64,000 nt of DNA. Origin: Collimonas fungivorans Ter331 (GTDB lineage Bacteria > Pseudomonadota > Gammaproteobacteria > Burkholderiales > Burkholderiaceae_D). Made by a program: the position numbers and the translations under genes. The stretch's first letter is position 1; each line of letters starts with the position of its first letter. Under the pieces are notes generated by a model. That model did no database searches. It was not told where the DNA came from and saw nothing but the letters and a program-made list of their open reading frames with translations. Positions 44,793-58,110 of the stretch are shown here, piece by piece. The DNA lies in assembly GCF_000221045.1 (NCBI RefSeq), contig NC_015856.1, positions 3,120,542-3,184,541 on the forward strand, written 5' to 3'.

Positions 44793-45204
44793 TTTTATTT
44801 TCTTCTGTAAAGAGTGCGGTTAATAAGCGCCAAAGTCGCTTTTTCTCAGCCGCGAGTTTTCCCATCGCTCCCACTTCCGTGCGAGACGTCGGCGTGTTGA
44901 TATTGACCAGGATCCGCGAAATCTGATGACATTCCCTCAACAACATCGCCCATAACTGAGATAACGGCAAAAATCGTGTTTTTTTTAGGGAGGCATGCTC
45001 GAATCTGATTTCATATCAAATTGGACAGTTATAAATAAATGTGATCATCTTCAAAGAAATTTAAAATCTTCCCAATACACCCCAGAGTCTTTATATTCTG
45101 TTGAGCGTTTCAAGCGGGAAGCGCGGCTGAAGCAAGTAAACAGCCGCTTCCCCACAGCCGGAATTCAGCCTAACCATCCGAAATTTAGACGGGAGATCAC
45201 AGTA
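44793..45204. other. Divergent region between chemoreceptor and peptidase genes
   Basis: No supported gene is present. A 63-codon minus-strand frame overlaps the chemoreceptor start but shows no ribosome site or homology. AT-rich bases at 44980-45090 probably hold both promoters. Confidence 0.35.
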
Positions 45205-46449
45205 ATGTTCCATTTTTCACGATCCGCATTCGTATCAAGCCTGAGTGTAGGCATCGCCCTTGGTTTAGCCGCGCCCTCTTCTTTTGCCGAACCCGACAAG
45301 CAGGTTTATGAAAAAGCCGAGCAATACAAGGGCGATGCCTTGAAACTGCTAGAACGGCTGGTGAATATCGATACCGGCACCGGCGACGAACAGGGGTTGA
45401 GCCAGGTCAGCGGGATAGTGATTGAAGAACTGAAAAAAATCGGGGCACACGTTGAAACCTATCCGGCGGCCGCGCCCGCAAATGGCAATAACGTGGTGGC
45501 GACATTCTCCGGAACCGGCAAAGGAAAGATTTTGCTGATGGCGCACATGGATACGGTGTTCAAGCACGGAACCGCCACGGCAAAGCCGTTTTATATCAAA
45601 GACAGCCGGGCTTACGGTCCTGGTGTCATGGATGACAAAGGAGGCATCGTCGCCGGCCTGTATGCGTTGAAAATCCTGCAACAGTTGGGTTTCAAAGATT
45701 ACGCCCAGATTACTTTATTGCTCAACTCTAACGAAGAGACCGGTTCCGCCGGTTCACGCGCCCTGATCGAAAAAATCGCCAGGCAGCACGATGTGGTGCT
45801 TAATCTCGAACCGGGCCGGGCGGCCGACGGCCTGGTGGTGTGGCGCAAAGGCAGCGGCACGGTGAAGGTTGAAGTTACCGGCAAGGCAGCGCACGCCGGC
45901 GTGGCGCCCGACAGCGGCCGCAATGCAGCGATGGAAGTCGCACACCAGATATTGCAGCTCGGCCAGCTCGGTGATCGCGAAAAACAAACGACAGTCAACT
46001 TTACCGTGATAAACGCGGGCGGCGCCACTAACGTCATCCCAGATCATGCGACAGCCTTCGGCGACGTGCGCGTCGCGGTTCCCGAGGAGTTCGACCGTGT
46101 CGAAAAAGACCTGGCCAAGATGTCGGAGAAAAAATTGATCCCCGATACCCAGGTAACGACGCGCTTGACCCGCGGATTCCCACCGATGCCGGCAAACCCG
46201 CAATCGGAAGCACTCGCTGCCAAGGCGCAGGCCATCTATGGCGAGTTAGGAAAAAAGCTGACGCTTGAGGGCAGCGGCGGCGCAGCGGATTCGAGCCTCT
46301 CGGCCGGCGTCGGGATTCCGACGCTGGATGGCTTCGGCATTGTTGGCGGCGGTATCCATACACCCGAGGAATACGCCGAAGTCGACAGCATCGTGCCGCG
46401 CTTTTATTTGCTAACCCGGATGCTTATGGATCTGGGCAAGCGGAAATAA
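45205..46449 (+). CDS. M20-family zinc metallopeptidase, glutamate carboxypeptidase-like
   Basis: The 414-residue protein has a signal peptide ending at SSFAEP. Its dinuclear zinc motifs are MAHMDTVF near residue 116, GPGVMDDKGG near 145, catalytic NSNEETGSAGSR near 180, and NLEPGR near 205. A dimerisation domain carries VTGKAAHAGVAPDSGRNA. These match periplasmic carboxypeptidase G2-like enzymes, which release C-terminal glutamate from peptides or folates. GGGAG precedes the ATG at 45205; the longer upstream frame lacks a signal peptide. Confidence 0.9.
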   Translation: MFHFSRSAFVSSLSVGIALGLAAPSSFAEPDKQVYEKAEQYKGDALKLLERLVNIDTGTGDEQGLSQVSGIVIEELKKIGAHVETYPAAAPANGNNVVATFSGTGKGKILLMAHMDTVFKHGTATAKPFYIKDSRAYGPGVMDDKGGIVAGLYALKILQQLGFKDYAQITLLLNSNEETGSAGSRALIEKIARQHDVVLNLEPGRAADGLVVWRKGSGTVKVEVTGKAAHAGVAPDSGRNAAMEVAHQILQLGQLGDREKQTTVNFTVINAGGATNVIPDHATAFGDVRVAVPEEFDRVEKDLAKMSEKKLIPDTQVTTRLTRGFPPMPANPQSEALAAKAQAIYGELGKKLTLEGSGGAADSSLSAGVGIPTLDGFGIVGGGIHTPEEYAEVDSIVPRFYLLTRMLMDLGKRK

Positions 46450-47023: not shown

Positions 47024-47387
47024 GAAAAGATCTCGCAAAAAGGTTGAAATGGCAATGAAGGAAGCTGTCAGCGACCCGGCTCTGTGCGGCTGTGCGCCTC
47101 TCCACTACATCCATTTTGCGAGTAATTACTCAATTTTTAAACTCGTATTGGACCTGCACCTCCTATAGCGCGCGAGGCAGCAATGGCGGGGATTTCCGCG
47201 CCAAGCGCGGCAACAGCCTGACGATTGCTCGCTTTTTTCGGAACCCGGCTCGCCGTCTCATTGATTCCAAAATCGTTTTCGTCATAAGCATGTTCGAAGA
47301 GATTCGTTCTCAAGTTTTTCGGCACTCTCTATCATCGGCACATTGGTCATAACCTGTCATGACAGGATTGATGTGTAAAGAGCGAAC
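47024..47387. other. Divergent promoter region of the GntR operon
   Basis: These 364 bases between the VOC and GntR genes contain no gene. They carry the palindromic operator described at 47353-47366, 21 bases before the GntR start. Confidence 0.45.
47353..47366. promoter_or_regulatory. Perfect palindrome CCTGTCATGACAGG, candidate GntR operator
   Basis: The 14-bp perfect palindrome stands 21 bases upstream of the GntR/UTRA gene. The core TGTCATGACA resembles HutC-subfamily operators (TGTnTAnACA type), suggesting autoregulation and control of the downstream operon. Confidence 0.55.
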
Positions 47388-48161
47388 ATGGCAAATGCAA
47401 TAAACAGTTTTCAGATAGTCGATCCCTCGCCCATACCCTTGTATGTCCAGGTCAAGGACCTGCTGCGCGCGCGCATCTTCGATGGCAGCTACGCTCCGCA
47501 TGCGCAGCTACCGCCCGAGAGCGGGCTGGGCGCCATCTTCGGCGTCAGCCGCATTACCGTACGCCAGGCCCTGAGCGACTTGCAGCGTGAAGGCGTCATC
47601 TTCAAGATTCCCGGCAAGGGGACTTTCGTGGCAAAGAAAAAGGCAGCGCAGCAACTTACCCACCTGGAAGGCTTCGCCGAGGCCATGACGCGCGAGGGAT
47701 ATCAAATCTATAACCGCGTGGTCGGGCATCACGCCATCCCCGCTACCGCCGAAGTAGCGCAGCAGCTGGGTGTGGAGGCCGGCACAAGCGTAGCGGAAAT
47801 CCGCCGCGTGCGTCATCTGAACGGTGAACCGGTTTCTCTGGAAATCACTTATTTGCCGGAACAGCTTGGCCAGCGCCTGCGTAATGAAGATTTGACCAAC
47901 CGGGATATTTTCCTGATCTTCGAGAACGATTTCGGCATCGCGCTGGGCCACGCCGACCTGCAAATCGGCGCCGTCACCGCCGACAGGACACTGGCTGATG
48001 CACTACAGGTCAGCGAAGGCAGCGCGCTATTGCGCATTGAGCGCCTGACCTATACCGCCGAAGGAAAACCGCTGGATTTCGAATATCTCTACTTTCGCAG
48101 CGAAACCTTTCAATACCACCTACGTATCGCACGGCGACCGGCTCCCGTCGGATCCGAGTGA
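47388..48161 (+). CDS. GntR-family transcriptional regulator, HutC/UTRA subfamily
   Basis: The 257-residue protein has an N-terminal winged HTH (PLYVQVKDLLRARIFDGSYAPHAQLPPESGLGAIFGVSRITVRQALSDLQREGVI). The C-terminal UTRA ligand-binding domain contains TSVAEIRRVRHLNGEPVSLEITYLPEQLG and LLRIERLTYTAEGKPLDFEYLYFRSETFQYHLRI. It ends 22 bp before the flavoprotein gene on the same strand, so it is the first gene of that operon and its probable local regulator. The ligand is unknown. Confidence 0.93.
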   Translation: MANAINSFQIVDPSPIPLYVQVKDLLRARIFDGSYAPHAQLPPESGLGAIFGVSRITVRQALSDLQREGVIFKIPGKGTFVAKKKAAQQLTHLEGFAEAMTREGYQIYNRVVGHHAIPATAEVAQQLGVEAGTSVAEIRRVRHLNGEPVSLEITYLPEQLGQRLRNEDLTNRDIFLIFENDFGIALGHADLQIGAVTADRTLADALQVSEGSALLRIERLTYTAEGKPLDFEYLYFRSETFQYHLRIARRPAPVGSE

Positions 48162-48183
48162 ATCAGGGCCACAGGAGAGCATC

Positions 48184-49938
48184 ATGGAAACCCATATCCA
48201 GACGGTAGACGTACTGGTCATCGGCGGCGGCACAGCAGGGCCGATGGCTGCAGCAAAAGCCAAGGAAGCCAATCCGGCCTTGCGCGTGCTGCTGCTGGAA
48301 AAAGCCAACGTCAAGCGCAGCGGCGCCATCTCGATGGGCATGGACGGCCTCAATAACGCCATCGTGCCCGGCTTCGCCACGCCAGAGCAATATGTAAAGG
48401 AAATTACCACTGCCAACGATGGCATCGTCAATCAGAAGACGGTCATGGCGTATGCGCAGAACAGTTTCCCCATGATTGAGGAACTAGACCGCTGGGGCGT
48501 CAAGTTCGAGAAGGATGAAACCGGCGACTACGCCATGCGCAAGGTGCACCACATGGGGACGTACGTATTGCCGATGCCGGAAGGCCACGATATCAAGAAA
48601 GTGCTGTACCGCCGCCTCAAGCGAGCCCGCGTCGAGATCACCAACCGCCTGGTGGCGACCCGCCTGCTTACGGCCGGCGATGGCAGCATCGCCGGCGCCA
48701 TGGCGTTCGACTGCCGTACCGGCGACTTCCACGTGATCCGCGCCAAGACTGTCGTGTTGTCGACCGGCGCCGCCGGCCGCCTTGGCCTGCCCGCCTCCGG
48801 CTATCTGTTCGGCACTTATGAAAACCCGACCAATGCCGGTGACGGCTACAGCATGGCGTATCACGCCGGCGCCGAGTTATCGGGCATCGAATGCTTCCAG
48901 ATCAATCCCTTGATCAAGGACTACAACGGCCCGGCCTGCGCTTATGTCACGGGCCCGTTCGGCGGCTTCACGACAAACAGCCATGGCGAACGCTTCATCG
49001 AGTGCGATTACTGGAGCGGCCAGATGATGCAAGAGTTCTATAACGAGCTGCAAGGCGGCAAGGGACCGGTATTCCTCAAGCTGGACCACCTTGCGGAAGA
49101 AACCATCAGCACCATCGAAACCATCCTGCACACTAACGAGCGCCCTAGCCGCGGCCGATTCCACGAAGGGCGCGGCACCAATTACCGTGAACAGATGGTG
49201 GAAATGCACATCTCCGAGATCGGTTTGTGCAGCGGCCATTCAGCGTCCGGCGTATGGGTCAACGAACATGCCGAGACCACGGTTCCAGGCTTATATGCGG
49301 CTGGCGACCTGGCCTGCGTACCGCATAACTACATGCTGGGCGCCTTCGTCTACGGCAAACTGGCTGGTGAAAGCGCTGCACGCTATTGCGCTGAAAAACC
49401 GCTGGCGGAAATCAGCCAGGACCAGGTCGAGACAGAACGAGCGCGTGTCTGGGCGCCGCTCGACCGGGTTGACGGCCTGCCGCCGGCGCAGGTGGAGTAC
49501 AAGCTGCGCCGCATGGTCAACGATTACCTGCAGCCGCCCAAGATTACACGCAAGATGGAAATCGGCCTCTCGCGTTTCGAAGCGATCCGCGCAGACCTCG
49601 ACCGCCTGCAGGCGCGCAATCCGCACGAGCTTATGCGCGCAATGGAAATCCACGCCATCCGCGACTGCGCCGAAATGGCCGCACGGGCTTCGCTGTATCG
49701 TACCGAAAGCCGCTGGGGCTTGTACCACAACCGAATCGATTATCCGGAGCGCAACGATGCCGAATGGCTGGTGCATGTACAGGTGAAGAAAGAGCAGGAG
49801 CAGATGACCTGCTTCAAGCGTCCTCTCGAGCCCTATATCCTCGCCCTCGACGAAAACGAAAAATCGGCCTACCAGCATCTGCGCATAAAAAAAGACGCCG
49901 CGACCGAAACCAGACTGGCCGAGCCCTCGGCAGCCTGA
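48184..49938 (+). CDS. FAD-dependent oxidoreductase, AprA/fumarate-reductase flavoprotein-like
   Basis: The 584-residue protein opens with the FAD dinucleotide motif VLVIGGGTAGPMAAAKAKE near residue 10. Then come KANVKRSGAISMGMDGLNN (like the AprA segment around RSGA) and VLSTGAAGRLGLPASGYLFGTYENPTNAGDGYSMAYHAGAE. The later GLYAAGDLACVPHNYMLGAFVYGKLAGESAARY binds FAD. It resembles the adenylylsulfate-reductase alpha branch of the succinate dehydrogenase/fumarate reductase family more than true fumarate reductases. It is followed by a two-cluster ferredoxin, as in AprAB. The substrate is unknown. GGAG lies before the ATG. Confidence 0.85.
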   Translation: METHIQTVDVLVIGGGTAGPMAAAKAKEANPALRVLLLEKANVKRSGAISMGMDGLNNAIVPGFATPEQYVKEITTANDGIVNQKTVMAYAQNSFPMIEELDRWGVKFEKDETGDYAMRKVHHMGTYVLPMPEGHDIKKVLYRRLKRARVEITNRLVATRLLTAGDGSIAGAMAFDCRTGDFHVIRAKTVVLSTGAAGRLGLPASGYLFGTYENPTNAGDGYSMAYHAGAELSGIECFQINPLIKDYNGPACAYVTGPFGGFTTNSHGERFIECDYWSGQMMQEFYNELQGGKGPVFLKLDHLAEETISTIETILHTNERPSRGRFHEGRGTNYREQMVEMHISEIGLCSGHSASGVWVNEHAETTVPGLYAAGDLACVPHNYMLGAFVYGKLAGESAARYCAEKPLAEISQDQVETERARVWAPLDRVDGLPPAQVEYKLRRMVNDYLQPPKITRKMEIGLSRFEAIRADLDRLQARNPHELMRAMEIHAIRDCAEMAARASLYRTESRWGLYHNRIDYPERNDAEWLVHVQVKKEQEQMTCFKRPLEPYILALDENEKSAYQHLRIKKDAATETRLAEPSAA

Positions 49939-49957
49939 CCCCAAACCAGGATACCCC

Positions 49958-50191
49958 ATGCCAACCGCCTTCAGCATCACCAGCGTCCCGGTCCGGATCG
50001 AGGAGGACAAATGCATCGCCGACAAGGGCTGCACCGTTTGCGTCGACGTCTGTCCGCTCGACGTGCTTGCCATCGACCTGACCAAAGGCAAGGCATTCAT
50101 GAAATTCGACGAATGCTGGTACTGCATGCCATGCGAGAAGGACTGTCCCACGGGAGCGGTCCATGTCGACATACCTTATCTGCTGCGCTGA
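49958..50191 (+). CDS. Two [4Fe-4S]-cluster ferredoxin, AprB-like
   Basis: The 77-residue protein has the cysteine patterns CIADKGCTVCVDVCPLDVL and CWYCMPCEKDCPTGAV, enough ligands for two [4Fe-4S] clusters. It resembles the N-terminal part of AprB but lacks the C-terminal tail that wraps AprA. It lies 20 bp downstream of the flavoprotein gene and is its likely electron partner. Confidence 0.9.
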   Translation: MPTAFSITSVPVRIEEDKCIADKGCTVCVDVCPLDVLAIDLTKGKAFMKFDECWYCMPCEKDCPTGAVHVDIPYLLR

Positions 50192-50229
50192 TCCAGAACC
50201 GGTTCCGTCTTTTCATCAGGGAAATAACA

Positions 50230-51642
50230 ATGCATTTTCGTCAAAACCTATATATAACCTTGTTCGGCCTGGCGCTGCTCGCGGGTTCCGCCAGCGCGGA
50301 GACCATCCGCATCGCTATCGGCACCCAGGACACGACGATCAACTGCGCCACCGGCGGTCTCCTGATACGCGAATTGAAACTGCTGGAGAAATATCTGCCG
50401 CACGAAGGCAAGTACAAGGACGCACAATATGACATCCAATGGAAAAACTTTACCTCGGGCGCGCCGCTGACCAATGAAATGGTGGCCGGCAAACTGGATA
50501 TCGGTTCGATGGCGGATTTCCCCGGTTCCTTCAATGGCGCCGCCCATCAGAAAGCCGGCAAGCGCAGCATATTCGTCACGGTGCTATCGGGCAGCATTAC
50601 CGGCAGCGGCAACGGCATTGTGGTGCCGAAAGCTTCCACGGTGCAGTCGCTGGCGGAATTAAAAGGCAAAACCATCTCAGTGCCGTTCGCCTCCACTGCC
50701 CACGGCATGCTGCTGCGCGCCGTCAAGGCGCAAGGCTGGGATCCGGAAAAGGATGTCAACATCGTCACCCAGGCCCCCGAAGTTGCCGGCTCCGCTCTCC
50801 AAAGCAACAAGATCGACGCCCACGCCGACTTCGTTCCCTTCGCCGAACTGTTCCCGCATCGCGGCTTTGCCCGCAAGATCTTCGACGGCTCGCAGACCGG
50901 CACGCCTACGTTGCACGGCAGCCTGGTCGATGCTGACTATGCAAAGAAATATCCTGAGATCGTGGTCGCCTACCTGCGCGCCGCCATCGAAGCGGACCGC
51001 CTGATTGCTGCCGAGCCAGAGAAATATAGCGAATTGATCGAAAAAATCACCGGCATCGACGCTGAAGTGAACTATCTGTTCCACGGCCCGCTTGGCCTGC
51101 AGACGCGCGACTTTACCTGGAAACCGGAATATCGCCAGGCGGTGAAGACTTCGATCGACACGCTGAAAGCCATGAAGCGCACCGAAACCGATCTCGATGC
51201 CGCCAGCTTCATCGTCGATGACTACATCCGGGCAGCATTCAAGCAATCCGGCCTCGACTACGAGGCCCACCTCAAGAATTACGCTAAACAGCCGCTGACG
51301 GCAAAAGATGCCTTGAGCGGAAAAACGATCGCTGACCCCAGGCGCGTGGGCCAGATATGGGTACAGGGTGAACCGCTGGTACGCCACTATGCTTCGCTGG
51401 AAAATGCCTTGTCGGAAGCACGCAAACTGGAAAAGTCCGGCAAGAAGATCCGCACCGTCTATGCGCATGACCGCGAAACCGGCCTGAAACTGCTGGCCGC
51501 GGATGCCTGGTTTGTACAAAGCAAGGGCGAAGTCAGCGCATTCCTGCTGAAGAGTTCGGCGGAAACCTGGGCCAGGAAAAACAATGGCACGGTGCTCGAC
51601 TTCAGCGCCGCCAAAGCAGGCGGTCCGGTTTCAACTTTGTAA
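50230..51642 (+). CDS. TauA/SsuA-type substrate-binding protein with C-terminal NosL-like domain
   Basis: The 470-residue protein has a signal peptide (ITLFGLALLAGSASAE). A nitrate/sulfonate-type binding domain follows: IRIAIGTQDTTINCATGGLL, KLDIGSMADFPGSFNGA, LKGKTISVPFASTAHGMLLRAV and DAHADFVPFAELFPHRGFAR. It is about 140 residues longer than typical members. The extra C-terminal part (KIRTVYAHDRETGLKLLAADAWFVQSKGEVSAFLLKSSAETWARKNNGTVLDF) has the order of elements of a NosL-like domain. AGGGAA precedes the ATG at 50230. It feeds the permease and ATPase encoded next. The ligand may be a sulfonate or other small anion. Confidence 0.82.
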   Translation: MHFRQNLYITLFGLALLAGSASAETIRIAIGTQDTTINCATGGLLIRELKLLEKYLPHEGKYKDAQYDIQWKNFTSGAPLTNEMVAGKLDIGSMADFPGSFNGAAHQKAGKRSIFVTVLSGSITGSGNGIVVPKASTVQSLAELKGKTISVPFASTAHGMLLRAVKAQGWDPEKDVNIVTQAPEVAGSALQSNKIDAHADFVPFAELFPHRGFARKIFDGSQTGTPTLHGSLVDADYAKKYPEIVVAYLRAAIEADRLIAAEPEKYSELIEKITGIDAEVNYLFHGPLGLQTRDFTWKPEYRQAVKTSIDTLKAMKRTETDLDAASFIVDDYIRAAFKQSGLDYEAHLKNYAKQPLTAKDALSGKTIADPRRVGQIWVQGEPLVRHYASLENALSEARKLEKSGKKIRTVYAHDRETGLKLLAADAWFVQSKGEVSAFLLKSSAETWARKNNGTVLDFSAAKAGGPVSTL

Positions 51643-51666
51643 CCAACGTAGCGACGGAGTCGGACC

Positions 51667-52536
51667 ATGGCCTTGAGTTATCCATTTGACACGGCGGAAG
51701 ATGGCGACCGCCAAGACGAGCCGCCATGGCGCTTGCCGGCGTCGTTCTCATTCGGTATTTTTTTTCCCCAATGGCTGCATTACGGACTGCGCCTGGCGTC
51801 CGTCGTTGCCTGCGTATTGCTGTGGCAATGGGCATCCAGCACTCACCTTAACCTGGGGTTGATCACTTTCCAGAACGTGCCATCACCCAAGGAAGTCATG
51901 CAGGCGGCGTGGAACCTGGCGCAATCGCCCAAACTGCTGGCGCACCTGGGTGCAAGCCTATATCGGGTGTTTGCCGGGTTCATCGTGGCGGCGCTGGCCG
52001 GCATCGTCCTGGGCATGCTGATTGGACGCGTACGCTGGCTGGCCGACATCTTGATGCCGCCGCTGGAACTGTTGCGGCCGATCCCGGCGGTAGCCTGGAT
52101 TCCGCTGGCGATCCTGATGTTTCCTTCTTCGGAAATATCGATGATCTATATCACCTTCATCGGCGCGCTGTTCCCGATCCTGCTGAACACTATCCATGGC
52201 GTGGAAGGCGTTGATCCGCGCTTGATCGCTTCTGCCCGCAGCCTTGGCAGCGGCCGCAGAAGCATCTTTTCCGAAGTTATCCTGCCGGCGGCAGCCCCCG
52301 GCATCGTCACCGGTTTGTCGATCGGCATGGGAACCGCCTGGTTCTGCCTGGTCACCGCGGAAATGATCGCCGGCCAGTTCGGCATCGGTTATTACACCTG
52401 GGCTTCCTACACTATCCAGAACTATGCCGACATCATCGTCGGCATGCTGCTCATCGGCGCCATGGGTATGGGCAGCAGCGCCTTGATCAAGAAACTGGGC
52501 AATGCGCTGATGCCCTGGTATCTGCTGCAAAGGTAA
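51667..52536 (+). CDS. ABC transporter permease, SsuC/TauC type
   Basis: The 289-residue inner-membrane protein has six likely helices after a polar N-terminus of about 30 residues. The EAA loop reads DPRLIASARSLGSGRRSIFSEVILPAAAPGIVTGLSIG near residue 180. PPLELLRPIPAVAWIPLAILMF is typical of the nitrate/sulfonate/taurine permeases. It lies between the binding-protein and ATPase genes. GGAG is found 8 bases before the ATG. Confidence 0.93.
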   Translation: MALSYPFDTAEDGDRQDEPPWRLPASFSFGIFFPQWLHYGLRLASVVACVLLWQWASSTHLNLGLITFQNVPSPKEVMQAAWNLAQSPKLLAHLGASLYRVFAGFIVAALAGIVLGMLIGRVRWLADILMPPLELLRPIPAVAWIPLAILMFPSSEISMIYITFIGALFPILLNTIHGVEGVDPRLIASARSLGSGRRSIFSEVILPAAAPGIVTGLSIGMGTAWFCLVTAEMIAGQFGIGYYTWASYTIQNYADIIVGMLLIGAMGMGSSALIKKLGNALMPWYLLQR

Positions 52537-52541
52537 ACAAC

Positions 52542-53384
52542 ATGACAACGGCACAATTTGGCAAGATCGACATCGATCGCCTGCATATCCAGCTGGGTAA
52601 AGGCAAGCGTCGCTTCGAAGCACTGCACGATGTTTCCATGTCGATCGCGCCGGGTGAGTTTGTCTGCGTGCTTGGCCCCTCCGGCTGCGGCAAGTCGACG
52701 CTGCTGGGCGCCGTGGCCGGCCATCTGCCTGCCAGCGAAGGCAGCGTCCATGTCGACGATGCGGCGGTCGACGGCCCGCATCCGGACCGTGGGCTGGTGT
52801 TCCAGCATCACACGCTGTTTCCCTGGAAAAAAGTGCTCGACAATGTCGCTTTCGGCTTGAAAATGAAAGGCCTTGCGCGCGGCGAACGTCATCAAAGGGC
52901 GCGCAATCTGCTCAAGCTGGTGGGGTTGGAAGGTTTCGAGCATTGCTATCCGGCCCATTTGTCGGGCGGCATGCAGCAGCGCGTCGAAATTGCCCGTGTC
53001 CTGATCAATCATCCGCGCGTGATGCTGATGGATGAGCCATTTGGCGCGCTCGACGCGCAGACGCGCCTGAAAATGCAAGAGCTGTTGCTGGAAGTATGGG
53101 CAGGCATCAAGACCACAATCCTGTTCATCACGCACGATATCGACGAAGCGCTGTTCCTGGCCGACCGCATCCTGATATTGAGCCCGCGGCCGGGACGCAT
53201 CATCGAAGAAATCAAACTGGAGTTTCCCCGGCCGCGCGGACCGGAACTGGTGACTTCGCTGCAATTCACCGAGTTCAAGCGCCATTGCCTGGCGCTGCTT
53301 CATCCCGAAGCCAAAGTCAGGCCGCTGGAACGGCTCAGTCCGCTAGGCGCACCCAACCTGACCGATATTCAATTTGCCATTTAA
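52542..53384 (+). CDS. ABC transporter ATP-binding protein, SsuB/TauB type
   Basis: The 280-residue ATPase has all motifs: Walker A GPSGCGKSTLL near residue 45, Q-loop LVFQHHTLFPW near 87, signature LSGGMQQRVEIARVL near 140, Walker B VMLMDEPFGALD near 160 and the switch histidine FITHDIDEALFLADRI near 195. It powers the adjacent permease. The C-terminal extension after residue 240 is short. It starts 5 bp after the permease stop. Confidence 0.95.
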   Translation: MTTAQFGKIDIDRLHIQLGKGKRRFEALHDVSMSIAPGEFVCVLGPSGCGKSTLLGAVAGHLPASEGSVHVDDAAVDGPHPDRGLVFQHHTLFPWKKVLDNVAFGLKMKGLARGERHQRARNLLKLVGLEGFEHCYPAHLSGGMQQRVEIARVLINHPRVMLMDEPFGALDAQTRLKMQELLLEVWAGIKTTILFITHDIDEALFLADRILILSPRPGRIIEEIKLEFPRPRGPELVTSLQFTEFKRHCLALLHPEAKVRPLERLSPLGAPNLTDIQFAI

Positions 53385-53393
53385 GGAAATGTA

Positions 53394-54365
53394 GTGAGCG
53401 CCGTCAACCATCATTACCAGGAAAGCCATGAAATCCGCCAGTTCCGTGAACGCTTGCGTGACGCCGATAGCGCCGTACGGCGCATAGCAGTGCTGGACCT
53501 GATCGACGTCGCCGGCGACGAACATGCGTCCTTGCTGGTGGAAACACTCAAGGACGCGGCTGCCGATGTGCGGCTAGAAGCAGCACGGGCGCTGGAAGCG
53601 TTCGAGAGCCGAGCCAGCGTCATCGGTCTGATCGGATTATTAACTGACGATGACAGCAAGGTACGCGAAGCTGCCGCCCACACGCTAAGCGAATTGAAAG
53701 ACCCCGCATCGGCAGCAATACTGTTGCCGCATGCCTCGGACGAGCGCTCTTTCGTCCGCGTAGCCGTCCTGCGTGCGCTGCGTGAACTGCGCGCACCGGA
53801 AAGCCTGGAGCCGGCTTTGTCGGCATTGATGCATGCCGATGCTGCCGTGCGGCGCGAAGCAATTTCGGTACTTGGTTACCTGAAACAGATTCGCGCGCTT
53901 GCGCCCATCATGCAGTTGGCTACCAGCGACCCGGATCCGGAAGTGCGACGAGCGGCGTCCGGCGCCCTGGGTTTCGCCATCGATGACAGCGTATTGCCGG
54001 CGCTACTGACGACTCTGCACGATGCCGCCTGGCAGGTCCGCGAAGAAGCGGCCACCACCCTTGGCAAGTTGCGCCTGGCTGCGGCAGCCGACGAACTGAT
54101 CAAGGCTTTGGAAGACCCTTACTGGCAAGTGAGGCTGCGCGCAGCGCGCAGCCTTGGACGGCTACGCAGCACCGCCGCCGTGATACCCTTGCTGCAAACC
54201 TTGCAGCACGAGATCAGCAACCTGCGCAAGGAAGCCGCCTTGTCGTTGGGAGAGATCCGCCACACAGCTGCACTGCCCTCTTTGCTGGCCGCAGAACAAG
54301 ATCCTGATCCAGAAGTCCGCAAGGCGGTACGGCTGGCGATAGAACAAATCCGCAGCGGTACCTAA
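53394..54365 (+). CDS. HEAT-repeat protein
   Basis: The 323-residue protein is built from about nine HEAT/PBS-lyase-type repeats of roughly 31 residues. Examples are VRLEAARALEAFESRASVIGLIGLLTDDDSKVREAAAHTLSELKDP and VRREAISVLGYLKQIRALAPIMQLATSDPDPEVRRAASGAL. The first 20 residues are histidine-containing (MSAVNHHYQESHEIRQF). No signal peptide is present, so it acts in the cytoplasm, perhaps as a scaffold or maturation factor for the flavoprotein/ferredoxin pair. The start is the GTG at 53394, with AAGGAAAT upstream. Confidence 0.88.
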   Translation: MSAVNHHYQESHEIRQFRERLRDADSAVRRIAVLDLIDVAGDEHASLLVETLKDAAADVRLEAARALEAFESRASVIGLIGLLTDDDSKVREAAAHTLSELKDPASAAILLPHASDERSFVRVAVLRALRELRAPESLEPALSALMHADAAVRREAISVLGYLKQIRALAPIMQLATSDPDPEVRRAASGALGFAIDDSVLPALLTTLHDAAWQVREEAATTLGKLRLAAAADELIKALEDPYWQVRLRAARSLGRLRSTAAVIPLLQTLQHEISNLRKEAALSLGEIRHTAALPSLLAAEQDPDPEVRKAVRLAIEQIRSGT

Positions 54366-54376
54366 GCCGCCAAGCC

Positions 54377-54679
54377 ATGCCATATCCCGTCAACATCGAA
54401 AATCAACTAGCCGGAGGCTTACTGCGCATCAACTGGGATGACGGTATCGAGCAATACTTGTCGCACAGCTTGTTGCGCAGCCGCTGCCAATGCGCGGATT
54501 GCAAGGCCATCCGATCGCACTCGAAGGCCGAATTATTGGTACAGGCGGACATTGGACTGACCGAAATCCGTTTGATCGGGCACTATGGGATTCAACTGAT
54601 ATTCAGCGATGGACATGCGCGCGGCATCTACCCCTGGCCCTATCTGCGAATTATCTCTGATCCCAACGGCGCGATGTAG
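54377..54679 (+). CDS. DUF971-family protein (gamma-butyrobetaine hydroxylase N-domain-like)
   Basis: The 100-residue protein has the whole DUF971 layout: LLRINWDDGIEQYLSHSLLRSRCQCADCKAI with a zinc-type CxCxxC motif, then YGIQLIFSDGHARGIYPWPYLR. DUF971 domains occur alone or at the start of 2-oxoglutarate-dependent hydroxylases and near Fe-S proteins. It starts 11 bp after the HEAT-protein stop and ends the operon that begins with GntR. Confidence 0.88.
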   Translation: MPYPVNIENQLAGGLLRINWDDGIEQYLSHSLLRSRCQCADCKAIRSHSKAELLVQADIGLTEIRLIGHYGIQLIFSDGHARGIYPWPYLRIISDPNGAM

Positions 54680-55374: not shown

Positions 55375-55740
55375 TTATAAGCCCTTTAACGAATAACTAG
55401 TTCCACAATCTTCGGTCCATTGCCCCACATTACCCAGCATGTCATATAACCCCCACGGATTAGGAGGGAATGCCCCAACCGGAGAGGTTGTCGGGTAACC
55501 ATCATTACAATCAGCATCAAGAGCATGGGTGTTGTATCCAGAAAGATCGACCGTTTTAGTCGCCTGGTCTCCGGAATTTACGAACTGGCATTGTTTTGAT
55601 GGCTCATTCCAATAAGTAGGTGTCGTCGTTCCAGCTCTTGTCGCATACTCCCATTCAGCCTCGGTCGGCAAACGATATTGGGCGTGGGAGCAACATCAAA
55701 ATTACAACCAGTCATCTCAACCAATATAAAATTAACGTCA
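55375..55740 (-). pseudogene. Formylglycine-generating-enzyme-like (SUMF1/FGE) fragment
   Basis: Minus strand 55375-55671 reads [21 protein letters not shown] (leading residue in frame), then [20 protein letters not shown] and QWTEDC, the core of the FGE-sulfatase fold. The protein stops shortly after this core, without the final strands and catalytic cysteine pair. Upstream residues are out of frame ([10 protein letters not shown]), so this is a broken gene. FGE activates sulfatases by oxidising cysteine; no sulfatase is in the window. Confidence 0.7.
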
Positions 55741-57237
55741 GTGAAGAACCGACAAATTCAGTGTCCCAATGCTAGCGGCAAGTTGAATCTTTGCATTCTG
55801 CCAACCGGCTAACGCTGCAATACGCTGTTGTTGGGCATTGGCCAATGCAGTCTGAGTTGTGATCAATTCTAAAATACCTGTTACGCCTTTGGTATAACGC
55901 GCCTGAGCTGCTTCAAATGCTGCTTTGGCGCTGTCGAGAATTTCCTGGCTAGTACGCAAATTATCGGTGTCAACCCTCAGTGTCTGATAGCTAGTCCATA
56001 CGCCCGATGCGACCTGTAACTCGGCATCAGTCAGACTTGCTTCTTTACCCTCGATCTGCGCCTGGGCCCCACGGATTTGATAGGTTCTTGTAAAACCTTC
56101 AAAGAAAGGGATGTTGATTTGAATGCCGATGGAACGGTCCCGGCTGGTTTCACCATAGTATTGCTGGCCGGCGCCAGAACTCTGCGGTTGATTGTTATAG
56201 TTGTATTTCCCCACAAAACTGATCGTGGGCCGTCCTTGCGCACGAATCATTTTTTCGTTAGCTTGCGCCGCTGCCAGATCAGCCCTAGCGGCGACCAGCG
56301 AAGGATGTCGCTCCTGGGCGCTTTGCAACAATTCAACTACCGATCGAACAAAGGCTGTATCAGGCAATACTGGGGTATTTGTTTCCGCAAGGTGTATGCC
56401 TGCATTTGGCTTTTGTCCGATGTCTATCGCAAGCTGACCGAGCGCGGACTGCCAATCGCCCTCGGCTTTGCTCCGATTGAATTTGGCTTGTGAATAGGCT
56501 GTTTGCGCTTGTAATTGATCGCTAATCGCCGCTACACCATGGCGCACACGGATGACAGCGGCATCAAAGACGCGCTGGGTGTCCGCTTCAATATCTTGCG
56601 TTGATTGCGCATTTTTTTGCGCCACGAGAGCGGCATAGTAATCTTTGACGGTGTTGGCGAAAACCGCCTGCAGCGTACTGTCTTGTCCTGCCAATGCTGA
56701 AGCCAGCAAGCTTTTTGCATAGCTAACGTTAGCCGATCTGGCGCCAAAATCATAAAGCACCCAATTCAACGTCAGAGCGGCGTTCTGGTAGCTGCTGTCT
56801 GATTGCACGTAAAAAGGGGCAGATGGCGTCCCATGATTGGTAGAACGATCTTTCGCAGCCTGCCCGGTGCCAGTCAATGTCGGCAGATAAGCAGCCTTGG
56901 AAAGGCCAACTTGCGCAGCCTGTACTTTAACGTTAACCCAAGCTTCTCGGGTTTTAGGGTTATGGCACAAAGCTGCCGACACAACGTCAAGTAAAGTGAG
57001 TTCCGTCTTTGCATTATCGGTACAAATTGCGATTGACGGCGAACCATCAAACATTTGTCCAGCAGGCATTACGGGTACCGCATCCAATTGGCGCAATGGG
57101 TCACGTAATCCCAAATCAATACCAAAACATGGCGCAACGCCACACCAACACACTACCAACAAGATGGCTTTGTACATGACGCGCCCGCTGAATTTCCACA
57201 TATTAGTGACATGCATGAATTGATTTGGCAGCGTCAT
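55738..57237 (-). CDS. TolC-family outer membrane channel of a type I secretion locus
   Basis: The 499-residue protein has an N-terminal signal segment (YKAILLVVCWCGVAPCFG) and the two-fold TolC/OEP repeat. The halves are LTLLDVVSAALCHNPKTREAWVNVKVQAAQVGLSKAAYLPTLT, with LNWVLYDFG after it, and later HPSLVAARADLAAAQANEKMIRAQGRPTISFVGKYNYN, with IPFFEGF after it. It forms the outer-membrane tunnel for the HlyD adaptor at the right edge. The ATG at 57237 follows the hydroxylase stop by 3 bases; a start at the internal Met before YKAILL (57177) is also possible. Confidence 0.9.
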   Translation of the reverse strand: MTLPNQFMHVTNMWKFSGRVMYKAILLVVCWCGVAPCFGIDLGLRDPLRQLDAVPVMPAGQMFDGSPSIAICTDNAKTELTLLDVVSAALCHNPKTREAWVNVKVQAAQVGLSKAAYLPTLTGTGQAAKDRSTNHGTPSAPFYVQSDSSYQNAALTLNWVLYDFGARSANVSYAKSLLASALAGQDSTLQAVFANTVKDYYAALVAQKNAQSTQDIEADTQRVFDAAVIRVRHGVAAISDQLQAQTAYSQAKFNRSKAEGDWQSALGQLAIDIGQKPNAGIHLAETNTPVLPDTAFVRSVVELLQSAQERHPSLVAARADLAAAQANEKMIRAQGRPTISFVGKYNYNNQPQSSGAGQQYYGETSRDRSIGIQINIPFFEGFTRTYQIRGAQAQIEGKEASLTDAELQVASGVWTSYQTLRVDTDNLRTSQEILDSAKAAFEAAQARYTKGVTGILELITTQTALANAQQQRIAALAGWQNAKIQLAASIGTLNLSVLH

Positions 57238-57240
57238 TTT

Positions 57241-58110
57241 TTAGCGATATTCATTCTGTCGCACCCACTTTGTGGCAATCCATTTTTCTCCTTCGATGAC
57301 AGGGCTACCACCATGAAAACTTAGGGAATCAAGTTGGTTCTCTGCATTAGTATAAGAAAAATAGATCGCACTTCCTTTTGCCGGGACTATAGACAGTCCA
57401 TTTCTAGGAAAAATGGTTTCACCGCCACCGTCGACATCGTTAAGGTAAATAATCAAGGTCGCAGTGCGTTGCCCCCCGCGTGCAAGATGCTTCGCGCTGC
57501 CAGGCGCGTCTGGGCGAAAATAATCATAGTGAGGCCTGTATTCCCCGCCCATTTGATAATTGAGAATCTGTAGTCCTTCACCATGACTCTCAGGCACCTG
57601 CATCAGAGCTGCAAGGCGCTTGTCGATCATGGCAATAAATGGCGTTGTTCCGCGATGGAAAAACGTACCGCTGCTGGTACGGTGTTCGTGGAGTTTGGTG
57701 TTGCCCGTCTGATGATCCACGACACCTGAGCGCAACAATTTCGTTTTGGATAAGGCAATCAGCTGATCGCACTCGTCGTGCGACAACACGTTACCAAACA
57801 AAATAGCACGTGGCTTTTCCAGTTTCATAAGCACGGCAATGTTATGACCGTCGATATGGACCTTATTGCCGGTATTCAGGCCGCATCCTTCATACCGATA
57901 TTCTTTCGGTACGGCGTCAGTTACTGTAGTTGCATCAGGTGCTGCGGCTGACGCTCGAATGCGCTCCAGAGTGCGTGACGCTATGGTTGCTGCAGCAAGT
58001 TCATTGCCGAATTTCGCCTTAACCATAGCATCGATCAGCTTTTTCTCCGATACGCCCCGCAAGACATTTTCGTCAATCCAGCGTATCCATTCCGGTGGAA
58101 TTTGATTCAT
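57241..58110 (-). CDS. 2-oxoglutarate/Fe(II) dioxygenase, prolyl-4-hydroxylase-like
   Basis: The 289-residue protein has a C-terminal double-stranded beta-helix hydroxylase domain. It has HEHRTSSGTFFHRGTTPFIAMIDKRLAAL and ILNYQMGGEYRPHYDYF with the HxD iron ligands. GGQRTATLIIYLNDVDGGGETIFP follows, and SFHGGSPVIEGEKWIATKWVR holds the distal histidine and 2-oxoglutarate-binding lysine. These match bacterial P4H proteins. The N-terminal 90 residues are helical and unassigned. It sits between the repeat-protein and TolC genes and could hydroxylate prolines of the secreted repeat protein (inference). Confidence 0.9.
   Translation of the reverse strand: MNQIPPEWIRWIDENVLRGVSEKKLIDAMVKAKFGNELAAATIASRTLERIRASAAAPDATTVTDAVPKEYRYEGCGLNTGNKVHIDGHNIAVLMKLEKPRAILFGNVLSHDECDQLIALSKTKLLRSGVVDHQTGNTKLHEHRTSSGTFFHRGTTPFIAMIDKRLAALMQVPESHGEGLQILNYQMGGEYRPHYDYFRPDAPGSAKHLARGGQRTATLIIYLNDVDGGGETIFPRNGLSIVPAKGSAIYFSYTNAENQLDSLSFHGGSPVIEGEKWIATKWVRQNEYR

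Follow-up and report, generated by a model that had tools for sequence, protein, structure and literature searches.

A conserved, often plasmid-borne operon around a relative of adenylylsulfate reductase in Collimonas fungivorans: a candidate system for import and reductive desulfuration of a sulfonate-like compound

A 64,000-nucleotide stretch of Collimonas fungivorans Ter331 (contig NC_015856.1; hereafter the window) carries an eight-gene operon in which a flavin adenine dinucleotide (FAD) flavoprotein and a two-cluster ferredoxin, related to adenosine 5'-phosphosulfate (APS) reductase, are combined with an ATP-binding cassette (ABC) importer, a GntR regulator, a HEAT-repeat protein and a DUF971 protein. 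The function that we propose for the operon, with an evenly balanced chance of being right, is the import and ferredoxin-driven reductive desulfuration of a sulfonate-like compound, the sulfur of which would be released as sulfite. The operon assembles known kinds of parts around a relative of APS reductase with a changed substrate site. The source genome (5.19 Mb, one contig, completeness 100) contains the eight genes in exactly the order and at the coordinates claimed by the original prediction, with domains that match its first description; all lie on the plus strand, span positions 47388-54679 and are separated by gaps of 22, 19, 38, 24, 5, 9 and 11 base pairs (bp). The features, with the evidence for each, are as follows.

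47353..47366, unstranded: perfect 14 bp palindrome CCTGTCATGACAGG, candidate GntR operator (0 mismatches; 21 bp before the GntR start)
47388..48161, plus strand: GntR/UTRA (HutC-type) transcriptional regulator, 257 amino acids (aa) (PF00392 77 bits, PF07702 130.7 bits)
48184..49938, plus strand: FAD flavoprotein, 584 aa, FAD_binding_2 and Succ_DH_flav_C domains (NF006131 (PRK08275) 1087.5 bits; tree; active-site comparison)
49958..50191, plus strand: 2x[4Fe-4S] ferredoxin, 77 aa (two 4Fe-4S motifs, eight Cys; Fer4_7 34 bits)
50230..51642, plus strand: predicted periplasmic substrate-binding protein of the TauA/SsuA class, 470 aa (NMT1; PF13379/PF09084)
51337..51606, plus strand: NosL-like C-terminal domain of the binding protein (Pfam tail scan; profile match to 7og7)
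51667..52536, plus strand: ABC permease of the NrtB/SsuC/TauC class (PF00528 BPD_transp_1; ntrB 144.5 bits, cut-off 209.05)
52542..53384, plus strand: ABC ATPase of the TauB class (PF00005 ABC_tran; PRK11248 267.5 bits, cut-off 357)
53394..54365, plus strand: HEAT-repeat protein, 323 aa, GTG start (HEAT_2 187.6 bits)
54377..54679, plus strand: DUF971 / GBBH-like_N protein, 100 aa (PF06155 77.8 bits; CxCxxC and DGH motifs)

Relatives of the flavoprotein were collected by a scan of genome contigs that yielded at least 573 stretches, the best 80 of which by similarity were used, a choice that tilts the conservation figures toward close kin; genes were counted in the 67 loci with full flanks, the remaining 13 having short ones. 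The ferredoxin and HEAT genes accompany the flavoprotein gene on the same strand in all 67, which bears out the prediction that the operon is conserved as a unit, and GntR, DUF971 and binding-protein genes were found in 66, 55 and 53 loci, respectively. The commonest arrangement, seen in 44 of the 67, has all five partners together. This conservation of the neighborhood is far above chance. Some Pseudomonas and Burkholderia loci have no importer in the operon, and the Thiobacillus-like and related loci show an altered gene order and an added FdxA-type ferredoxin. Among the best 80 of the at least 573 stretches, the closest named relatives of the flavoprotein come from Herbaspirillum (90-91%) and Duganella (89-90%), and the regulator is likewise closest to that of Herbaspirillum (79-81%). 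The flavoprotein was also detected in 53 plasmid records at 60-80% identity (five partial, 26-48% covered), the hosts of which include Burkholderiales, rhizobia, Acinetobacter, Acidithiobacillus, Methylobacterium, cyanobacteria and Actinobacteria, and its occurrence in the host order is patchy (15 of 250 genomes at E<=1e-120). Such a distribution presents the picture of a mobile, self-contained function. The operon had been called undescribed, and for the exact gene set this is upheld by literature searches, one of them judged from titles and the beginnings of abstracts, which returned nothing relevant; a closely analogous system has been published, however, namely asfRABC for arylsulfonates.

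The flavoprotein matches NF006131 far above the curated cut-off (1087.5 bits, cut-off 587). This model is named "fumarate reductase/succinate dehydrogenase flavoprotein subunit", a name that reflects how its members are annotated. The models of the classical enzymes are missed by far (TIGR01812, sdhA_frdA, 171.9 bits, cut-off 567.3; TIGR01816 and TIGR01176 likewise), and in the alignment the flavoprotein lacks the HGANRLG active-site stretch seen in the SdhA-like protein of the host. The concern, raised with the original prediction, that the protein could be an ordinary fumarate reductase is thus countered by these three models, although the model that does match bears precisely that name. The models for APS reductase are also missed, TIGR02061 (aprA) with 183.8 bits against a cut-off of 641.75 (1080.8 bits for a true AprA, L011; such labels are ours for individual loci and, with G, genomes) and PRK06854 with 305.4 bits against 557. 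The best solved match is the alpha subunit of the 3'-phosphoadenosine 5'-phosphosulfate (PAPS) reductase of Methanothermococcus thermolithotrophicus (8a8o, 228.5 bits). In a 23-row tree, from which the row L002_long was excluded as probably translated in the wrong frame and in which L042 was trimmed to its first 575 residues, the window-type flavoproteins form one clade (97/99) that groups with AprA and the PAPS-reductase type, apart from succinate dehydrogenase and AsfA (99/97). The tree and the match to 8a8o agree with the AprAB-like pair originally proposed.

In AprA, Arg265 and Trp234 are residues of the APS site, and the Arg contacts the sulfo group. In all 11 window-type rows of the alignment (Archaeoglobus fulgidus numbers, counted on the 1jnr alignment), Trp234 is replaced by Tyr (Tyr212), Arg265 by Leu (Leu243) and Arg260 by Phe or Tyr; the AprA row and the PAPS-reductase-type row of Ilyobacter keep all three. 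The conservation of the APS-binding Arg and Trp, proposed as a check of the prediction, was therefore not borne out, and with both replaced the flavoprotein is probably no APS reductase. The counterpart of Asn74 (Asn57) and a conserved His352 are present in 11 of 11 window-type rows, as are an Asn and a His in the AprA row; we take His352 to be the likely counterpart of AprA His398. The PAPS reductase of M. thermolithotrophicus is described as retaining the catalytic residues proposed for APS reductase, and a nucleophilic attack of the flavin N5 on sulfur has been proposed for it (PMC10322725). Since the Asn and His are kept, the Trp and both Arg are replaced, and the PAPS reductase keeps the proposed catalytic residues, the window enzyme looks like a related machine with a different substrate pocket. 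Another AprAB-like pair was noticed at L010:1259-3156 (G044), comprising a flavoprotein of 561 aa, in which Val replaces Asn74 and Arg265 and Leu replaces the His, and a ferredoxin of 66 aa; it possibly represents a further branch.

A script found the eight-Cys pattern of the ferredoxin in 85 of 88 relatives, and inspection by eye found it also in L040, L041 and L042, where the first spacing is shorter; the own-genome duplicates L003, L008, L132 and L147 were left out of the motif counts. The match of the ferredoxin to the 132-position aprB model is confined to positions 5-64. With 123 bits, the HEAT protein aligns to NF010374, a curated flavoprotein-HEAT model, in the C-terminal part of the latter, and the copy on a plasmid of the actinobacterium Tsukamurella (L042) encodes an 893 aa flavoprotein-HEAT fusion (35% identical over 253 aa); because of this match and this fusion, the HEAT protein is very likely a subunit of the flavoprotein complex. 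The CxCxxC and DGH pair of DUF971 is found in 63 of 65 rows and possibly forms a metal site. At three cyanobacterial plasmid loci the annotation lists an Mrp/NBP35 iron-sulfur factor and no DUF971 gene, and two of the three Mrp/NBP35 proteins were scanned and contain FSCA and ParA domains. The plant and protist protein HCF101 joins FSCA, ParA and DUF971, most of its DUF971 domains being reported with CxCxxC, and the function of DUF971 is called elusive in the same article (PMC7980591). HCF101 and Mrp (ApbC) share their parts with the operon, which mostly has DUF971 and, in cyanobacteria, FSCA-ParA; the difference is that DUF971 stands alone in the operon. The cyanobacterial exchange and the domain joining in HCF101 make a role of DUF971 in iron-sulfur maturation likely. 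The statement that the last two proteins of the operon have no known role overlooked both the HEAT-flavoprotein fusion and the presence of Mrp/NBP35 in place of DUF971.

Several neighbors bear on the supply of electrons. In Methylobacterium, FdxA and an FNR-type reductase are encoded behind the importer. In the Thiobacillus-like and related loci the operon is associated with a large protein (1199 aa at L062:16979-20578; 1153 aa at L038:10574-14035) in which one Pyr_redox_2 domain is recognizable; its relatives occur in 11 loci, with one cut short, and the remainder of the 1199 aa protein matched no Pfam family at E<=1e-5. These neighbors suggest that electrons enter from NAD(P)H and that the enzyme reduces its substrate.

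The assignment of the importer to the sulfonate/nitrate class is supported: in the profile search with the binding protein, the closest solved structure is TauA (6ssy, E=2.5e-25), and the three best solved relatives are named taurine or sulfonate binders, followed by one of the nitrate class. All three importer proteins belong to the class of TauABC/SsuABC, and differ from these systems in that the taurine and alkanesulfonate models stay below their cut-offs (SsuA_fam 118.6 bits, cut-off 163.5; TIGR01729 94.3 and 304.25; the ATPase model PRK11248 as listed above) and in the NosL-like tail of the binding protein. Against PF05573 NosL (cut-off 24 bits) this tail stays below the cut-off when the window copy is taken alone (16.7 bits) and exceeds it in L060 (29.3 bits), and a 38-row profile over it retrieves the solved NosL 7og7 (E=2.2e-4) and, weakly, 2hpu (E=0.37), which supports the predicted NosL-like tail at the level of the family. 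NosL binds copper through Cys. The window tail has no Cys, as have 59 of 75 tails, the other 16 having two, and a NosL-type copper site in the window binding protein is therefore unlikely.

The 14 bp palindrome recurs with up to four mismatches within 160 bp upstream of the GntR gene in 57 of the 75 loci with a script-called GntR start, as compared with 4.2% of random control stretches from the same loci. A degenerate form occurs 52 times in 2.38 Mb of loci, 40 times before GntR, partly by construction since the form was derived from such sites, and 12 times elsewhere. By our sorting, seven of these 12 lie between GntR and the flavoprotein gene, in loci where no good site precedes GntR, one precedes the binding-protein gene (L072), one lies immediately before the large Pyr_redox_2 oxidoreductase gene downstream of the importer (L069), and three are at GntR genes with a start missed or set too early by the script; on this reading all 12 fall in the operon or its downstream unit. 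This recurrence indicates that GntR and the palindrome travel with the operon, and we infer that the regulator binds the candidate palindrome. The window regulator scores below the cut-off of all 25 NCBIfam models listed for it. In rhizobia, Methylobacterium and cyanobacteria, the regulators that neighbor the operon are of the Crp/Fnr or LysR type in place of GntR. A consensus scan found 5 promoter-like sites (3.9 expected) and 15 terminator-like sites (8.9 expected, standard deviation 3.0), two of the latter on the plus strand and neither directly behind the last gene.

Neighboring genes were examined one locus at a time, with no matched control set, and most of them occurred in a single locus each. 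The following lie up to about 12 kb from the operon: TauE/SafE sulfite exporters (Aquabacterium, Pseudanabaena, Leptolyngbya and L118), YeiH or sulfate-exporter-family genes (that in L085 below the model cut-off), sulfonate ABC sets and LLM/NtaA-type monooxygenases in several loci, O-acetylhomoserine sulfhydrylase and YeeE near one copy, and a gene for an SrpI-type encapsulin shell that adjoins one for an aminotransferase class-V protein. The original suggestion of import and redox conversion of a possibly sulfur-containing compound gains from the importer class and these neighbors. The source genome also encodes SsuD and, outside the operon, two proteins with PAPS_reduct-domain matches; APS reduction is therefore not what this genome lacks.

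The asf cluster is described as comprising a substrate-binding protein, an ABC transporter, a reductase/ferredoxin pair and a LysR regulator, and as needed beyond ssu for aromatic sulfonates; asfA mutants of Pseudomonas putida S-313 lost the use of aromatic sulfonates and kept that of aliphatic ones, and asfA is reported in Variovorax, Acidovorax, Cupriavidus, Burkholderia and Pseudomonas (PMC4267179). In Cupriavidus metallidurans CH34, AsfA and AsfB are given as Rmet_4334/5 (PMC2864759). By interpolation of gene numbers, anchored on six TauD genes and the NuoF homologue Rmet_4300, the two genes were placed at ~928-930 kb of the megaplasmid, a region that encodes a flavoprotein of 549 aa and a two-cluster ferredoxin of 111 aa; we infer that the former is AsfA. 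The other candidate pair of CH34 (L126) adjoins the NuoF anchor, near Rmet_4301/2. No LysR gene was found beside the CH34 pair in the list of open reading frames and a Pfam scan of some neighbors, which weakens the placement. The presumed CH34 AsfA is 26% identical to the window flavoprotein and falls in a separate clade (100/100), and the megaplasmid contains no close window-type flavoprotein (best matches 30% and 28%), a result that set back the candidate explanation of the operon as simply asfAB. In three other genomes AsfA-type genes are followed by ferredoxin, binding-protein and ABC genes, so that in some genomes asfRABC resembles the window operon from the flavoprotein and 2x[4Fe-4S] ferredoxin through to the SsuA/TauA-class binding protein and ABC genes. 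It differs in its reported LysR regulator, as opposed to the GntR/UTRA of the window and of 66 of its 67 full-flank relatives, and in that HEAT and DUF971 are not listed in two annotated AsfA-type loci without a window-type copy.

The two types sometimes meet. AsfA-type genes adjoin the window-type operon in four records (L051, L133, Sinorhizobium fredii and S. americanum). In Andreprevotia ~230 bp separate the window-type operon from the start of the AsfA-type gene, which is followed by a ferredoxin gene; in G254 the two operons converge with a 4 bp overlap; and on the S. fredii and S. americanum plasmids two flavoprotein matches lie ~830 bp apart, the AsfA-type match of S. fredii being in three unannotated pieces, so that this gene is possibly broken. 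Of the 40 AsfA-type plasmid records listed (of 59), eight also carry the window type, and the AsfA type occurs in 5 of 50 window-type carriers (50 of the 80 loci, isolates preferred). In the host order the AsfA type was found in 9 of 250 genomes (E<=1e-100) and both types in 4, the two draws of 250 genomes being taken as identical, with unmatched genomes not all listed. Co-occurrence has p=0.0009 by genome, three of the four shared genomes belonging to one genus, and p=0.087 by genus, a value that becomes 0.009 on inclusion of a genus in which the two genes occur in separate genomes; it is suggestive, not strong. A search for the AsfA type in the source genome returned only the window flavoprotein itself (29%), and the Pseudomonas carriers of the window type that were tested have no CH34-type AsfA. 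As a kind of system, the window pair is sister to AsfAB, which it sometimes adjoins; judged by sequence, it is not AsfAB. A fatty-acid-desaturase-family membrane protein is encoded near AsfA-type genes of C. metallidurans and S. fredii (L130:14984-16015 and L136:3178-4104; 39% identical) and could be a missing oxygenase partner of aryl desulfonation.

These comparisons bear on an alternative that we regard as unlikely and still worth serious attention, namely that the pair is an electron-supply module for oxygen-dependent desulfonation, the role ascribed to AsfAB, feeding an SsuD or LLM monooxygenase while the importer takes up an aromatic sulfonate, or that the operon is asf itself, the S-313 AsfA being of the window type. 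The described parts of asf do resemble the window set (PMC4267179), the five genera reported with asfA also carry the window type, and the Pseudomonas result, the adjoining AsfA-type genes, the SsuD of the source genome and the LLM monooxygenases near several loci would all fit. However, the core operon contains no monooxygenase, the window regulator is GntR and not LysR, the AprA-like site residues kept by the window flavoprotein are absent from AsfA-type rows, and the distance from the presumed CH34 AsfA and the lack of a close window-type gene on a megaplasmid with published asfAB also speak against it. That the flavoprotein instead reduces some other imported organic or inorganic anion, not a sulfur compound, is quite unlikely: nitrate, bicarbonate and pyrimidines are among the other substrates of this importer class, the profile search has relatives of other specificity further down its ranking, and genes of nitrogen or thiamine metabolism (detailed below) each lie near one copy, but the three best solved relatives of the binding protein are taurine/sulfonate binders, and sulfur genes neighbor the operon in Proteobacteria and cyanobacteria alike. 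Highly improbable is a true APS/PAPS reductase, or an ordinary fumarate reductase/succinate dehydrogenase, that happens to lie in an import operon. Its fold family, the best solved match and the NF006131 name would favor such an enzyme; the cut-offs of TIGR02061, PRK06854 and sdhA_frdA, the replaced Arg265 and Trp234 and the missing HGANRLG stretch led to the rejection of both plain assignments. In its two-subunit makeup, tree position and retained Asn74 and likely His398, the pair resembles AprAB, from which it differs in the replaced site residues, the remote aprA score and the partial ferredoxin; in the place of what we take to be the usual AprAB neighbors, sat and qmo, the window operon has an importer, HEAT and GntR. 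The PAPS reductase 8a8o and its Ilyobacter relative share with it the combination of a flavoprotein and a small ferredoxin, but the Ilyobacter type keeps the AprA Trp and both Arg and adjoins cysC, cysD and a GTP-binding protein gene, whereas no cysC or cysD lies beside the window flavoprotein.

Under the proposed reductive desulfuration, GntR would keep the operon repressed by way of the 47353 palindrome, and binding of a ligand to its UTRA domain, probably the substrate or a related compound, would lift this repression. The compound taken up by the TauA/SsuA-type importer would be a small organosulfur anion, either a sulfonate or another X-SO3 compound, and in the cytoplasm the HEAT protein would form a complex with the AprA-like flavoprotein and the two-cluster ferredoxin that cleaves the X-S bond reductively with electrons delivered from NAD(P)H via ferredoxin. 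An N5-flavin-sulfite adduct as in APS reductase would then yield sulfite for cysteine synthesis. The HEAT protein would act as scaffold of the complex, possibly replacing the AprB tail, and DUF971 would help to mature or insert the iron-sulfur clusters.

Several observations weigh against this proposal. The sulfo-contacting Arg of AprA is Leu here, so the AprA mechanism may not transfer, and the tree contains long branches that the tree tool flagged as possible false joins. In 14 of the 67 full-flank loci no binding-protein match of 200 bits lies near the flavoprotein gene. The dedicated GntR, in the place of a sulfate-starvation regulator, argues for substrate induction over general sulfur limitation. 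In Pseudanabaena, genes for a cyanase and a nitrate-type importer are found at a distance of 9-13 kb from the operon, an ammonium transporter, glnK and glutamine genes lie near another copy, and thiamine genes near a third. The comparison with asf has three weak points: the CH34 gene, placed by position, stands in for the S-313 AsfA, the CH34 pair shows no neighboring LysR gene, and the Pseudomonas carriers tested have the window type and not the CH34 type. Should the S-313 AsfA be of the window type, the operon belongs to the asf family.

To our knowledge, the enzymes that open less common sulfonates are poorly characterized. Soil sulfur is mostly in organic form, in large part as sulfate esters and sulfonates, according to the review cited above (PMC4267179). 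The operon is common (at least 573 stretches), strongly conserved and plasmid-borne in many hosts, and a common soil sulfur pathway may still be undescribed. We tentatively suggest, while finding it rather doubtful as a whole, that the operon represents a third branch of the APS-reductase family, one at work apart from sulfate activation. Its enzyme would need no oxygen, be driven by ferredoxin, include a HEAT subunit and strip sulfite from an imported sulfonate-like compound; plasmids would have spread it in Proteobacteria, Cyanobacteria and Actinobacteria, and in Proteobacteria it would mostly be provided with its own ligand-sensing GntR and operator. If the reductive desulfuration proposed above is right, it would add a new substrate to the APS-reductase fold and a new marker beside asfA to soil microbiology. 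With its own sensor, candidate operator, binding protein and enzyme, the operon carries what a direct test needs.

Among the other genes of the window, an M20-family peptidase is encoded directly upstream of the operon (44995-46449, plus strand; scanned from 45208), and M20 proteins are found near the operon in Methylobacterium and S. fredii too. Downstream, a 98 aa frame on the minus strand (55375-55671) matches positions 112-193 of the 255-position FGE-sulfatase domain with 70 bits and is probably a gene remnant of a formylglycine-generating-type enzyme. A protein of the 2OG-Fe(II) oxygenase superfamily (57241-58110, minus strand) is encoded beside an outer membrane efflux (OEP) protein at 55738-57237.

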